Of a stretch of 22,813 bases of DNA, positions 757 through 11,725 are shown piece by piece. The notes beneath the pieces were generated by a model, which was not told where the DNA came from, made no database searches, and was given only the letters and a program-made list of their open reading frames with translations. Where the stretch lies: the IMG/VR virus record IMGVR_UViG_3300027833_000232, positions 1 to 22,813 of that record; one strand, given 5' to 3'. The position numbers and the translations under genes are program-made. Positions within the stretch are counted from its first letter, which is position 1; each line of letters opens with the position of its first letter. This stretch comes from a virus.

Positions 757-923
757 TGCCTCTACCCCCTACGATGGAAATGGAGCTTATGGAGCTAGGC
801 ATACTCAAGAGTGATATAGAAGAACTTGAGAGTGTAGCTGAACAAACAGGCTTCTATGCACTAAGAGCCGAGACTATAGCTTGGCATAACACACTAATAA
901 TAGATGGAGAGGTAATGTTCTAA
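756..923 (+). CDS. Hypothetical 55-aa protein
   Basis: A short frame starts in a TAATG overlap with the upstream gene and ends in a TAATG overlap with the downstream gene. That layout is the main evidence that it is real. The 55 residues begin MPLPPTMEMELMEL and continue with a helix-like acidic stretch (LKSDIEELESVAEQ). No family is recognised. Confidence 0.5.
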   Translation: MPLPPTMEMELMELGILKSDIEELESVAEQTGFYALRAETIAWHNTLIIDGEVMF

Positions 924-1075
924 TGGGAAAGATAAAACTACATGGTGACTTCATACTTACAAGTGACCTAATGAAAAGACTTAATGATATTATATACGCT
1001 AAAGAACCCGTAAAGGAAGCTATAGAGCTTAAGAGAGATATTATAGTAGAAGACATAGAAAGAAGCCATAGATGA
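923..1075 (+). CDS. Hypothetical 50-aa protein
   Basis: The start overlaps the previous stop as TAATG and the end overlaps the next start as ATGA. The 50-residue product is highly charged and probably all helical (MKRLNDIIYAKEPVKEAIEL near its middle). No motif or family is recognised. Confidence rests on tight packing between neighbouring genes and the absence of a competing frame. Confidence 0.5.
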   Translation: MGKIKLHGDFILTSDLMKRLNDIIYAKEPVKEAIELKRDIIVEDIERSHR

Positions 1076-1257
1076 GTTTAAGACCAATATTTTACTGCCC
1101 TGACTGTTTGAAAGAGGGCTTCAAGAATAAACTTAAAGTAACACATACAGAAGAATACTTTAAGTTAGGATACCCAAGTATAAGAAGACGCAAGAAGTGT
1201 CTATCTTGTGGATTAATAACTAGAACAATAGAAATGGAGTTACAAGACAATGATTAA
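1072..1257 (+). CDS. NrdR-like zinc-ribbon protein lacking the ATP-cone
   Basis: This is a 61-residue protein with a four-cysteine zinc ribbon: C9-x2-C12 and C43-x2-C46. The second half, SIRRRKKCLSCGLITRTIE, closely resembles the end of the NrdR zinc ribbon, which typically reads IRRRR-x-C-x2-C followed by an aromatic/threonine-rich strand. NrdR is the bacterial repressor of ribonucleotide reductase genes. Its ribbon binds DNA and its ATP-cone senses dATP and ATP. Here the protein ends just after the ribbon, so the nucleotide-sensing part is missing. The phage encodes its own reductase at 9579-11489, which makes a link to dNTP control attractive but unproven. A generic zinc-ribbon DNA-binding protein is the alternative. 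Confidence 0.6.
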   Translation: MSLRPIFYCPDCLKEGFKNKLKVTHTEEYFKLGYPSIRRRKKCLSCGLITRTIEMELQDND

Positions 1258-1420
1258 AGACTATAAACCATACTACAGAACAGATAAGATGAAACAAGAA
1301 GAATTAAGAACAGCTAAGTATGTAAGTATTTTATTTTTTACTATGGTGTTGTTCTCATTCATAGGATTTGCTTTCGTATTAGTTAAGGCAATGTTATATA
1401 TGACAGGTCTATTCTTATGA
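1250..1420 (+). CDS. Small single-pass membrane protein
   Basis: This 56-residue frame starts inside the end of the zinc-ribbon gene (8-base overlap) and ends in an ATGA overlap with the sigma-like gene. The first 24 residues are polar and basic (MIKDYKPYYRTDKMKQEELR). They are followed by a strongly hydrophobic stretch from about residue 25 to 45 (VSILFFTMVLFSFIGFAFVL). This pattern predicts an inner-membrane protein with a cytoplasmic N-terminus. Small early membrane proteins of phages often act in superinfection exclusion or host inhibition, but nothing here shows which. Confidence 0.55.
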   Translation: MIKDYKPYYRTDKMKQEELRTAKYVSILFFTMVLFSFIGFAFVLVKAMLYMTGLFL

Positions 1421-1920
1421 ACAACCAAGAAATATTAGATATGTGTAGAAGGTTAGCAAGTAAATACTATAACCATCAGGACTACGATGATATAGTATCT
1501 GAGGGCGTAGTCTTATGCTTAAACATGAGAGCTGAAGGTATCACAGAACCCCACAAGATGTACTATAGGGCTAGGGATGAAATGTCTAACTACTTAAACG
1601 TAAGATCTTCTAACTTATCTTATCCTAAAAGTAGAGCAGGTCGTAAAGCTGTAAAAGATGACAACACAGAATATGTAGATGCAGAAGATGAGCAAATACC
1701 TGCCGAAGATTTATTTGGTTCGTATGAATTAAAGAATTCTATCGAGGCACTAAAGAAACATTTAAGTAAAAGAGAGTGGGAAGTGTTTGTATGTTTGCAC
1801 AACAATAACAACAACTTAACTCACACTTCTAATGTGTTAGGGGTATCTAAGCAAGCTATAGAACAAGCACTCAATAGAATAAAAAACAAGATTGTAACAA
1901 TTTGTGATGTTGACATTTGA
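1417..1920 (+). CDS. Compact sigma70-family-like transcription factor
   Basis: This 167-residue protein has two parts resembling a minimal sigma factor. Residues about 5-45 (SKYYNHQDYDDIVSEGVVLCL) match the region 2 pattern of acidic residues before E-G and hydrophobics. The last 55 residues (LSKREWEVFVCL, then a helix-turn-helix with LGVSKQAIEQALNRI) look like region 4, which binds the -35 element. Such factors redirect host RNA polymerase, and no phage RNA polymerase is visible in this window. The stop codon lies inside a strong promoter (1910-1938), so the downstream gene has its own start of transcription. The identification comes from motif pattern only. Another HTH regulator with a sigma-like fold is possible. 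Confidence 0.7.
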   Translation: MNNQEILDMCRRLASKYYNHQDYDDIVSEGVVLCLNMRAEGITEPHKMYYRARDEMSNYLNVRSSNLSYPKSRAGRKAVKDDNTEYVDAEDEQIPAEDLFGSYELKNSIEALKKHLSKREWEVFVCLHNNNNNLTHTSNVLGVSKQAIEQALNRIKNKIVTICDVDI

Positions 1921-5641: not shown

Positions 5642-5660
5642 CTTTATTTTTTTCGTCAGG

Positions 5661-5690
5661 TTGACATTTGACGAATTTAGACGTTATATA
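5661..5690 (+). promoter_or_regulatory. Sigma70-like promoter, copy 2, before the SSB gene
   Basis: TTGACA at 5661-5666, a 17-base spacer and TTATAT at 5684-5689 (or TATATA at 5685-5690) make a near-consensus promoter. The 28 bases 5661-5688 are identical to promoter copy 1. It lies in the only sizeable gap within the replication genes (5642-5719) and would boost expression of the SSB-like protein, needed in high amounts. A strong ribosome binding site (AAAGGAA, 5707-5713) follows. Confidence 0.8.
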
Positions 5691-5719
5691 TAAGTACCAA
5701 CAGCCGAAAGGAACTCGAC

Positions 5720-9385: not shown

Positions 9386-9582
9386 GAATATTGAGAGCGT
9401 TTGGTAGATGGTGGTATAGGTTTATTAACTACATGGTTACATGGCAACTACACAGGGATGCAGTTAAACATCTGAATAAGTTAACTGACAGAGAACTAAA
9501 AGATATAAGACTTAATCGTGGTGACATTGACCGCATGATATGGTTTAAAGAAGACAAGAAAGATAGAGGGGGAAAGAAATGA
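9382..9582 (+). CDS. DUF1127-like small basic protein
   Basis: This 66-residue, strongly basic protein contains HLNKLTDRELKDIRLNRGDI (about residues 30-49). It fits the DUF1127 pattern of L-x-x-L-(S/T)-D-R-E-L-x-D-I-x-L-x-R-x-D-I. DUF1127 proteins are short and are especially numerous in Alphaproteobacteria. Some have been tied to RNA turnover and small-RNA maturation, or to growth and stress physiology. The N-terminal 25 residues (FGRWWYRFINYMVTWQLHR) are aromatic and could form an amphipathic helix. The gene overlaps MazG and the reductase by four bases each, so it is translated with them. The family call is by eye. Confidence 0.68.
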   Translation: MRILRAFGRWWYRFINYMVTWQLHRDAVKHLNKLTDRELKDIRLNRGDIDRMIWFKEDKKDRGGKK

Positions 9583-11489
9583 GTGACAACTACTTACCAA
9601 CAGATTATCAATCCTTTATACACAAGTCACGTTATGCTCGTTGGTTAGAAGCAGAAGGTAGGAGAGAGTCTTGGGGAGAGACAGTAACTAGGTATATGGA
9701 CAACTTAGTTAAACCAGCTCTAGGAGACCACCCTAAGCAGATAGCAGAGATAGAGTTAGCTATTCTAAACCTAGAAGTAATGCCTTCTATGAGAGCTTTG
9801 ATGACAGCAGGTCCAGCTATGGCTCGTGACAATACGGCAGGTTATAATTGTTCTTACTTAGCTGTAGATGACATTAAAGCATTTGACGAAGCTATGTTTA
9901 TTTTGTTGTGTGGTACAGGTGTAGGGTTCTCTGTTGAGAGACAGTCTATACAGAAGCTACCAGAAGTGCCTGACAGTATGTTTAACAGCGACACTACGAT
10001 CATAGTAAAAGATAGTAAAGAAGGTTGGGCTAAGTCTCTAAGACAACTCATAGCGTTGTTGTATAGTGGCGAGATACCTAAGTGGGATGTATCTAGAATT
10101 AGACCAGCAGGTGCAAAGCTAAAGACCTTTGGTGGTAGAGCATCAGGACCAGCACCTCTTATAGACTTATTCAACTTTGTTAGTAAAGTATTTACAGAAG
10201 CTAAAGGACGTAGGTTGTCCTCTCTTGAGTGTCACGACATTATGTGTAAGATTGGTGAGGTTGTCGTAGTAGGTGGTGTACGTAGGTCTGCTATGATCTC
10301 GCTATCTAATCTATCAGATGATCGCATGAGACATGCTAAGTCAGGTTCATGGTGGGACAACGATCCACAACGAGCTTTAGCTAACAACTCTGTGTCGTAT
10401 ACTGAGAAGCCTGACAGTTTATCTTTCATGCGTGAGTGGATGGCTCTAGTGGAAAGTGGGAGTGGTGAACGTGGTATCTTTAATCGTGAAGCATCTAAGA
10501 AGCAAGCGGCTAAGAATGGTAGACGTGATCCTAACTATGAGTTCGGGACGAATCCTTGCAGTGAGATAATCTTGAGGCCAGCACAATTTTGTAATTTAAC
10601 GGAGTGTGTAGTACGTGCTACAGATACAGTAGAAGACTTAGAACGCAAGGTACGTATCGCTACAATACTAGGTACTATACAATCCTCTTTTACTAAGTTT
10701 CCATACTTACGTAAGATATGGCAAAAGAATACTGAAGAAGAAAGACTACTAGGTGTGTCTATGACTGGTATTATGGACAACCCTATAATGACAATAGCAA
10801 ACAAAGGATTGGAGAATACTCTTGGACATCTCAAACAGATCGCTGTCGATACTAATGCTACTTGGGCTAAACGCCTTGATATCCCTGTCAGTACTGCTAT
10901 CAGCTGTGTTAAACCAAGCGGTACTGTCAGCCAACTGGTTAACAGTAGCAGTGGGATTCACGCTCGTCACTCAGCCTATTATATTCGCACTGTACGCGGA
11001 GACAACAAAGACCCGTTAACAAAGTTTATGATGGATCAAGGTATACCTAATGAGCCTGATGTAATGAAACCTGACCAGACTACTGTGTTTAGCTTCCCTA
11101 TGAAAGCTCCAGAGGGTGCAGTGACTACTTCTGATATGTCTGCTATACAACAGCTAGAGATGTGGTTAGCTTATCAACGTAGTTGGTGTGAGCATAAGCC
11201 TAGTGTGACTATTAATGTTAAGAAAGACGAATGGTTTGAAGTAGGAGCATTTGTGTACAAACACTTCGATGAAATGTCAGGTGTGTCGTTCTTACCATTC
11301 AATGAACATACTTATCAGCAAGCACCTTATCAAGACTGCTTACCTACTGACTATCATATACTTTTAGATCAAATGCCTAAAGCTATTGACTGGACTAAGT
11401 TGTCAGAATATGAACAAGAAGATAACACTGCTGGAAGCCAGACATTAGCATGTAGTGGTGATAGCTGTGAGATTGTAGATCTCGTTTAA
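9579..11489 (+). CDS. nrdJ: Adenosylcobalamin-dependent (class II) ribonucleotide reductase
   Basis: This 636-residue enzyme is close to the monomeric class II type that reduces ribonucleotides using vitamin B12 coenzyme. Visible catalytic parts are NCSYL (C91, first redox cysteine) and NPCSE (C327 thiyl-radical cysteine, E329). There is a glycine-rich CGTGVGFSVER near residue 111, a phosphate-binding VKPSGT motif in the last third, and a C-terminal pair C625-x4-C630 that would pass electrons from the glutaredoxin encoded next. It supplies dNTPs for replication and relies on host cobalamin. No metal-radical subunit is needed. Codons in 10819-11010 differ from the rest of the gene (see findings). 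The stop overlaps the glutaredoxin start. Confidence 0.93.
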   Translation: MSDNYLPTDYQSFIHKSRYARWLEAEGRRESWGETVTRYMDNLVKPALGDHPKQIAEIELAILNLEVMPSMRALMTAGPAMARDNTAGYNCSYLAVDDIKAFDEAMFILLCGTGVGFSVERQSIQKLPEVPDSMFNSDTTIIVKDSKEGWAKSLRQLIALLYSGEIPKWDVSRIRPAGAKLKTFGGRASGPAPLIDLFNFVSKVFTEAKGRRLSSLECHDIMCKIGEVVVVGGVRRSAMISLSNLSDDRMRHAKSGSWWDNDPQRALANNSVSYTEKPDSLSFMREWMALVESGSGERGIFNREASKKQAAKNGRRDPNYEFGTNPCSEIILRPAQFCNLTECVVRATDTVEDLERKVRIATILGTIQSSFTKFPYLRKIWQKNTEEERLLGVSMTGIMDNPIMTIANKGLENTLGHLKQIAVDTNATWAKRLDIPVSTAISCVKPSGTVSQLVNSSSGIHARHSAYYIRTVRGDNKDPLTKFMMDQGIPNEPDVMKPDQTTVFSFPMKAPEGAVTTSDMSAIQQLEMWLAYQRSWCEHKPSVTINVKKDEWFEVGAFVYKHFDEMSGVSFLPFNEHTYQQAPYQDCLPTDYHILLDQMPKAIDWTKLSEYEQEDNTAGSQTLACSGDSCEIVDLV

Positions 11490-11725
11490 TGTGGATAGTA
11501 ATAACTAGAAACCAATGTAACTTCTGTGATTCCTCGTTACAATTACTACGAGGGGTTGCAGGTAGTCAGGTAACAACATACAATGTTCAGTCTCCAAGTA
11601 GTAAATGGTTATTGACTTTAATGCGTGAGTCAGGCTATACTACAGTACCTCAAATATTTAAACCAGATGGCACTCACCTTGGGGGCTATACAGAACTAAG
11701 GGAATACTTAAGTAAAAATGGCTAA
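11489..11725 (+). CDS. Glutaredoxin-like thiol reductant
   Basis: This 78-residue thioredoxin-fold protein has the active site CNFC at residues 10-13, the cis-proline motif TVPQIF and the glycine pair GGY near the end. These are the hallmarks of glutaredoxins. Immediate coupling to the reductase gene (TAATG) strongly suggests that it re-reduces the C-terminal cysteine pair of NrdJ. In T4 a glutaredoxin plays the equivalent part. Confidence 0.9.
   Translation: MWIVITRNQCNFCDSSLQLLRGVAGSQVTTYNVQSPSSKWLLTLMRESGYTTVPQIFKPDGTHLGGYTELREYLSKNG

Follow-up and report, generated by a model that had tools for sequence, protein, structure and literature searches.

A stand-alone NrdR-type zinc ribbon with replaced base-reading residues in a phage sequence record

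The closest described system for the small phage protein considered here is NrdR, a widespread repressor of bacterial dNTP synthesis. In E. coli NrdR the zinc cysteines are Cys3, Cys6, Cys31 and Cys34, and the face through which the protein pairs is made up of R27, R29 and E42, as reported in PMC12176259. For S. coelicolor NrdR, PMC9110341 reports that R12, R26-R29 and R37 contact the phosphates and that D15 and R17 read the bases. In the same report the R17A change abolished binding and the D15A change led to promiscuous DNA binding; since the D15A protein still binds DNA, loss of D15 alone would not be expected to abolish DNA binding.

Stand-alone phage ribbons resembling that of NrdR are already annotated in the databases. 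BFVD entries carry the name 'Transcriptional repressor NrdR-like N-terminal domain-containing protein', and the ribbon of Nohivirus S31C1 is annotated as 'transcriptional regulator NrdR'. An NrdR-named protein is reported for phage S-SRP02 (PMC8790148), and NrdR is given for the STIV-group viruses in a figure legend of PMC5894146; in the main text of PMC9531940 NrdR is not mentioned. No function is assigned to either of the PHROG families with the best matches to such ribbons (phrog_36879 and phrog_10675). In the open-licence literature, no functional study of a stand-alone phage NrdR ribbon was found, and no report of a variant lacking the base readers or of the stepwise origin of such a variant. 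Within that literature, the ribbon variant without base readers described in our study appears to be new.

The ribbon gene and its neighbourhood

The window, i.e. the whole stretch of DNA analysed, consists of 22,813 bases of a virus record (IMG/VR IMGVR_UViG_3300027833_000232). The small four-cysteine protein encoded near its start and the parts of it that are discussed below are as follows.

1072..1257, + strand: stand-alone NrdR-type zinc ribbon of 61 aa with an ATG start (15 loci; PF22811; hhalign; fold search)
1096..1107, + strand: first zinc pair, C9-P-D-C12, both cysteines invariant in alignment A6 (32 sequences)
1141..1152, + strand: T24-H25-T26-E27, at NrdR V14-D15-S16-R17; base readers replaced (MAFFT, L-INS-i and hhalign concur)
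1183..1194, + strand: R38-R39-R40-K41, at NrdR R26-R29; three of the four arginines of the phosphate grip retained, the fourth being K
1198..1209, + strand: second zinc pair, C43-L-S-C46, both cysteines invariant in alignment A6 (32 sequences)
1216..1218, + strand: I49, at NrdR R37; the phosphate-contacting arginine is lost

The SIRRRKKC block (ribbon residues 36-43) and the second CxxC motif are both present in this ORF, just as the preliminary description of the locus had it. The two cysteine pairs are separated by 30 residues in the window ribbon against 24 in E. coli NrdR, which corresponds to an insertion of six residues located after the first pair. The ORF adjoins several other genes, and further genes of interest are found downstream.

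923..1075, + strand: 50-aa ORF adjoining the 5' side of the ribbon, with a 4-nt overlap (ATGA) with the ribbon start
1250..1420, + strand: 56-aa ORF with an 8-nt overlap with the ribbon end; likely a small membrane protein
1417..1920, + strand: 167-aa sigma-factor-like protein (phrog_1190, E=2e-8; TIGR02937 at 39.6 bits, below the cut-off of 42.9)
9579..11489, + strand: class II (B12-dependent) ribonucleotide reductase of the NrdJ/RTPR type (TIGR02505 E=3.9e-95, under the curated cut-off; PF02867 and PF21995 above cut-off)
11489..11725, + strand: glutaredoxin (TIGR02181 E=4e-9, under the curated cut-off)

The ribbon is encoded at 15 loci of the IMG/VR scan with 86-98% identity. In all 15 it is followed in identical order by the 56-aa ORF, the sigma-like ORF and the primase-helicase, and the 50-aa ORF precedes it in each of the 14 clade loci that have upstream DNA. 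Among seven clade members the pairwise dN/dS values, where defined and non-zero, range from 0.04 to 0.24 and are mostly about 0.1 (for the window ribbon and that of L008, dN is 0.049 and dS is 0.455). This conservation at 15 loci, together with the constant neighbours and the low dN/dS, establishes that the ORF is not a chance one and is a real, maintained gene under purifying selection.

The operon of the ribbon is of the early type. A hydrophobic stretch is seen in the 56-aa ORF when its translation is judged by eye. The sigma-like protein (1417-1920) is 68-83% identical across the clade, being more variable than most of its neighbours, and it is possible that it serves as a phage sigma factor or as a decoy. 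The primase-helicase of the window has 82% identity to its counterpart in Roseobacter phage CRP-6, and the class II reductase has 83% identity to the enzyme of Lentibacter phage ICBM2 (Zobellviridae, Cobavirinae). On the basis of these two likenesses the window belongs to a Cobavirinae-like phage, the host of which is most likely a member of the Rhodobacteraceae.

Kinship with NrdR and replacement of the base readers

The ATP-cone of NrdR was said in the preliminary description to be absent, and this holds: the protein has only 61 aa, and PF03477 matched none of the 12 ribbon-bearing records, the window included, while 12 of the 14 control genomes gave a match. At E values up to 10, the window protein has PF22811 (Zn_ribbon_NrdR) as its only Pfam match, at E=0.01 and with 16.2 bits against a gathering score of 27.2, and the NCBIfam model TIGR00244 gave no match to it at E<=1. 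The relatives were collected by a profile scan of IMG/VR, which gave 77 loci. PF22811 is matched at E<=1 by all 18 members of an alignment picked from these loci and from phage records, and its cut-off is passed by the ribbons of RcZahn (39.0 bits), CRP-901 (34.5) and CRP-902 (32.9); TIGR00244 is matched at E<=1 by 26 of the 32 aligned phage ribbons (alignment A6, from which L063 was left out). In hhalign comparisons, where the E-values are pairwise and carry no database calibration, nine proteins of the window clade matched 17 bacterial NrdRs with a probability of 95.0% (E 3.6e-8), and the 32 phage ribbons matched NrdR with 98.0% (E 2.7e-13). Judged from these profiles, the match to NrdR is weak for the window protein alone and clear through its relatives.

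The AlphaFold model of the ribbon (mean pLDDT 77.5, pTM 0.54) has strands at residues 20-29, 36-43 and 49-55. In a Foldseek search of the PDB, NrdR chains formed the first 11 of the 420 matches, at a probability of 1.00 and a best E of only 0.021. VIA-align placed NrdR in the five top rows with Z of 4.9-5.7, the following row having 4.2, and a Z below 8 can reflect a common arrangement. The model was built on a shallow alignment (32 rows) in which NrdR-like relatives were included, and the agreement in fold therefore does not count as evidence separate from the sequence similarity. Within these bounds the model supports an NrdR ribbon fold, and a search for a better structural counterpart in some other ribbon family, by Foldseek and VIA-align, has favoured NrdR. 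The profile comparisons and the tree, with the predicted fold in support, show that the ribbon descends from the DNA-binding ribbon of NrdR or has a common ancestor with it; the earlier assignment to the NrdR type is thereby borne out by both profile (95.0% and 98.0% in hhalign) and predicted fold.

Residue by residue, MAFFT, L-INS-i and hhalign all concur in placing H25 at NrdR D15 and E27 at R17, and I49 occupies the position of R37. R26-R28 are retained, and lysine is found at the positions of R12 and R29, the latter giving the RRRK block. The dimer-face counterparts are the most constant, as every one of the 44 ribbons of the chosen set has those of R27 and E42, and all of them have R or K at the place of R29.

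The tree comprises these 44 ribbons, a chosen subset of the IMG/VR loci and phage records, and has limited resolution because about 45 residues are aligned; three loci with a truncated ribbon (L041, L050 and L015) were dropped from the residue tables. The window clade branches from within phage ribbons in which D15 is intact, the nodes around it having support of 98-99. At NrdR positions 15/17/37, the sister clade L026-L043, several members of which have NrdJ on the contig, has D/R/R, and so does the CRP-901 group. L025 (a phage contig of 57 kb that also carries NrdJ) has D/K/K; L022-L024 have H/K/I; and the window clade itself has H/Q/I or H/E/I. An acidic residue (D or E) is missing from position 15 in 7 of the 44 ribbons, and these make up exactly the window clade and the L022-L024 group. 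Position 37 is other than R in 14 of the 44, further phage ribbons included, so the R37 change says little by itself and is the least informative of the three. The relatives show the base readers being lost in steps, and the order of the states can be read directly from the sequences.

One set of marine phages thus contains, as natural variants, four steps by which a DNA reader has parted from its target. With this series it can be tested directly what an NrdR ribbon does when no nucleotide sensor is attached to it, and likewise whether phages interfere with a widespread repressor of bacterial dNTP synthesis.

A few further ribbons have been observed in the course of the survey. The gp96 protein of Rhodobacter phage RcZahn (L019 3977-4192), which is annotated as Ogr/Delta-like, scores 39.0 bits (E 7.4e-10) with the NrdR ribbon against 14.1 bits with Ogr_Delta; its gene lies directly 3' of thyX. 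Unannotated NrdR-type ribbon genes are found at L020 7977-8174 and L021 2968-3165 (Roseobacter phages CRP-901 and CRP-902, respectively). A Nitrospirota contig (L115 6007-6195) encodes a stand-alone ribbon of 63 aa in which D15, R17, RRRR and R37 are all NrdR-like. Phage NrdR-type ribbons of about 100-110 aa, also without the ATP-cone, are present in L126, L132-L136, L142 and L143, and their tails are of low complexity, rich in K and P and then in D/E.

DNA sites and the link to the phage reductase

NrdR boxes were searched with a general consensus. Among 12 phage sequences, 11 had no site at <=3 mismatches and L051 had one single site, and looser box-like sites in the window numbered 12 where 19.1 were expected. 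Box pairs were absent from all 16 phage sequences searched, the window included; the E. coli nrdA promoter gave pairs as the positive control, a control that was not blind since the mismatch limits (4 and 6) had been set after viewing the nrdA sites.

Other repeated elements are present in the window. The motif AACRTAAGTWT occurs in three direct copies, at 1949, 1961 and 2005, in the stretch that separates the sigma-like gene from the primase-helicase, and the last of them overlaps the start codon; these repeats are kept in the clade and in CRP-6. Two promoter-like elements, located where the sigma-like gene ends (1901-1942) and before a 182-aa ORF (5652-5693), are identical at 38 of 42 bases, read TTGACA, 18 nt, TATAKAT, and are conserved in relatives. 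Both the repeats and the doubled element were considered as sites of the ribbon and rejected, because they have counterparts in CRP-6, where no ribbon was found, and they are therefore no evidence of the target of the ribbon. In L003 (1668-2842) the sigma-like gene and the primase-helicase are set apart by two extra ORFs, of 272 and 114 aa. The third repeat copy in this locus overlaps the beginning of the 272-aa ORF, and the repeats thus track the start of the operon and not the primase.

The window does encode a class II reductase of its own, as stated in the preliminary description, and a glutaredoxin and MazG in addition. NrdJ is also found in five more loci of two cobavirus-type clades (L012, L030, L032, L036 and L041). 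Across the ribbon records, many of which are fragments, PF02867 is matched in 6 of 33 and TIGR02505 in 2 of 12. The complete phages RcZahn, CRP-901 and CRP-902 and the 107-kb contig L082 all carry a ribbon and gave no match to PF02867 or TIGR02505; ownership of a reductase therefore does not explain the family. The suggested tie between the ribbon and a phage with its own reductase is thus true of the window but is not general, as three complete ribbon phages have no detectable reductase. A search of 50,697 phage records with the window protein gave nothing better than E=0.03, and in CRP-6, the nearest isolate, the replication and sigma-like genes are shared and no ribbon was found. Taken with the ribbon phages lacking a reductase, these results lead to the conclusion that the ribbon gene is an accessory one, which some uncultured phages carry and which is not tied to the reductase. 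A link to ThyX was also considered and dropped, PF02511 being found in 1 of 33 records (RcZahn only; the window is not among the 33).

Possible functions and comparison with known systems

The reading which we tentatively favour, at slightly less than an even chance, is that the phage has put a free NrdR-type ribbon to new use as a regulator: the protein would still form pairs and hold nucleic acid, but its target would be a new one and NrdR boxes would go unread. From the conserved residues, the ribbon most likely folds with three strands, pairs via its last strand and grips the phosphate backbone with the RRRK block. As the ATP-cone is missing, it can neither sense dATP/ATP nor build the NrdR tetramer. 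Going by the S. coelicolor mutants (PMC9110341), the replacement of the base readers should leave NrdR boxes unrecognised. From its place in the operon, the ribbon most likely acts in the early phase of infection, beside the sigma-like protein, as a regulator that is small and constitutive and binds DNA or RNA.

The conserved dimer face allows a different role, in which the ribbon forms dead mixed pairs with host NrdR, unable to read boxes or to complete the tetramer, and thereby lifts the repression of the host reductase genes and increases dNTP production. Id proteins provide the logic, as they have kept dimerisation and lost DNA binding. All 44 ribbons have the dimer-face residues (counterparts of R27, R29 or K, and E42), whereas the window clade no longer has the reading residues, the same pattern as in the Id proteins. 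A phage protein that binds NrdR has a precedent in orf6 of phage Cp-1, which binds NrdR SP_1713 of S. pneumoniae by yeast two-hybrid (PMC4840434, Table 1), but Cp-1 orf6 is no zinc ribbon. The retained RRRK block would be unneeded by a pure poison, and most relatives keep the reading residues; this role is considered unlikely. If true, it would mean that the phage raises its dNTP supply by disarming a repressor and not only by its own enzyme. Cp-1 orf6 was also looked at as a possible relative of the ribbon and was rejected, having no CxxC motif. A somewhat smaller chance is given to an activator that touches the host RNA polymerase and turns on middle or late promoters of the phage. The Ogr-type proteins are annotated as stand-alone phage zinc fingers that activate transcription, a control comparison found the NrdR and Ogr ribbons mutually related by profile (95.6%), and a sigma-like protein adjoins the ribbon. 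However, the window clade matched a five-protein Ogr alignment with only 9.6% over 10 columns, there was no Ogr_Delta Pfam match at E<=10, and the second cysteine pair is C43-x2-C46 where Ogr has C-x4-C. Membership in the Ogr/Delta family itself was rejected on the 9.6% over 10 columns, the window protein falling on the NrdR side.

The preliminary description had proposed that the free ribbon could occupy the NrdR boxes of the host reductase genes and so block or relieve their regulation. An NrdR-type ribbon with the RRRK block would be suited to this, and a relative could occupy boxes, since the L026-L043 sister clade and the CRP-901 group keep D/R/R. In the window ribbon, however, H25, E27 and I49 replace D15, R17 and R37, and R17A is reported to abolish binding in S. 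coelicolor (PMC9110341); a lone ribbon moreover cannot form the tetramer that binds paired boxes, and no box pair was found in the window with the consensus used. The proposal has accordingly lost ground and now seems quite improbable. The lowest probability of all is assigned to an accessory ribbon of the replication machine, working with the primase-helicase encoded downstream and not as a regulator. It would fit the gene order of the cobavirus clades, where the ribbon is upstream of the primase-helicase, and that of Nohivirus S31C1, where the DNA primase immediately follows a stand-alone ribbon. Against it, a Cys-rich stretch is already present at the N terminus of the phage primase-helicase, the hhalign match of the ribbon to the primase-helicase is 9%, and CRP-6 has the same replication genes with no ribbon found.

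Set beside the known systems, the window ribbon is nearest to the N-terminal ribbon of NrdR (PF22811; E. coli 9fxk/9gex, S. coelicolor 7p37), with which it shares the two CxxC pairs, three predicted strands, the RRR block and counterparts of R27, T40 and E42. It differs in lacking the ATP-cone, in having six extra residues after the first cysteine pair, in the replacement of D15, R17 and R37 and in falling below the Pfam cut-off. Like the other stand-alone phage NrdR-like ribbons, it is a small gene without an ATP-cone (58-81 aa for several of them), but most of the aligned ones keep D/E-x-R whereas the window clade and its sister (L022-L023) do not. The Ogr/Delta proteins of P2-like phages are likewise small stand-alone phage four-Cys ribbons; theirs, however, has a C-x4-C second pair and no RRR block, and the profile match is weak (9.6%). 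The Id proteins, which are HLH proteins without the basic region, are of unrelated fold and kingdom, and it is the logic alone that they would have in common with the ribbon, were it to act as a poison of host NrdR.
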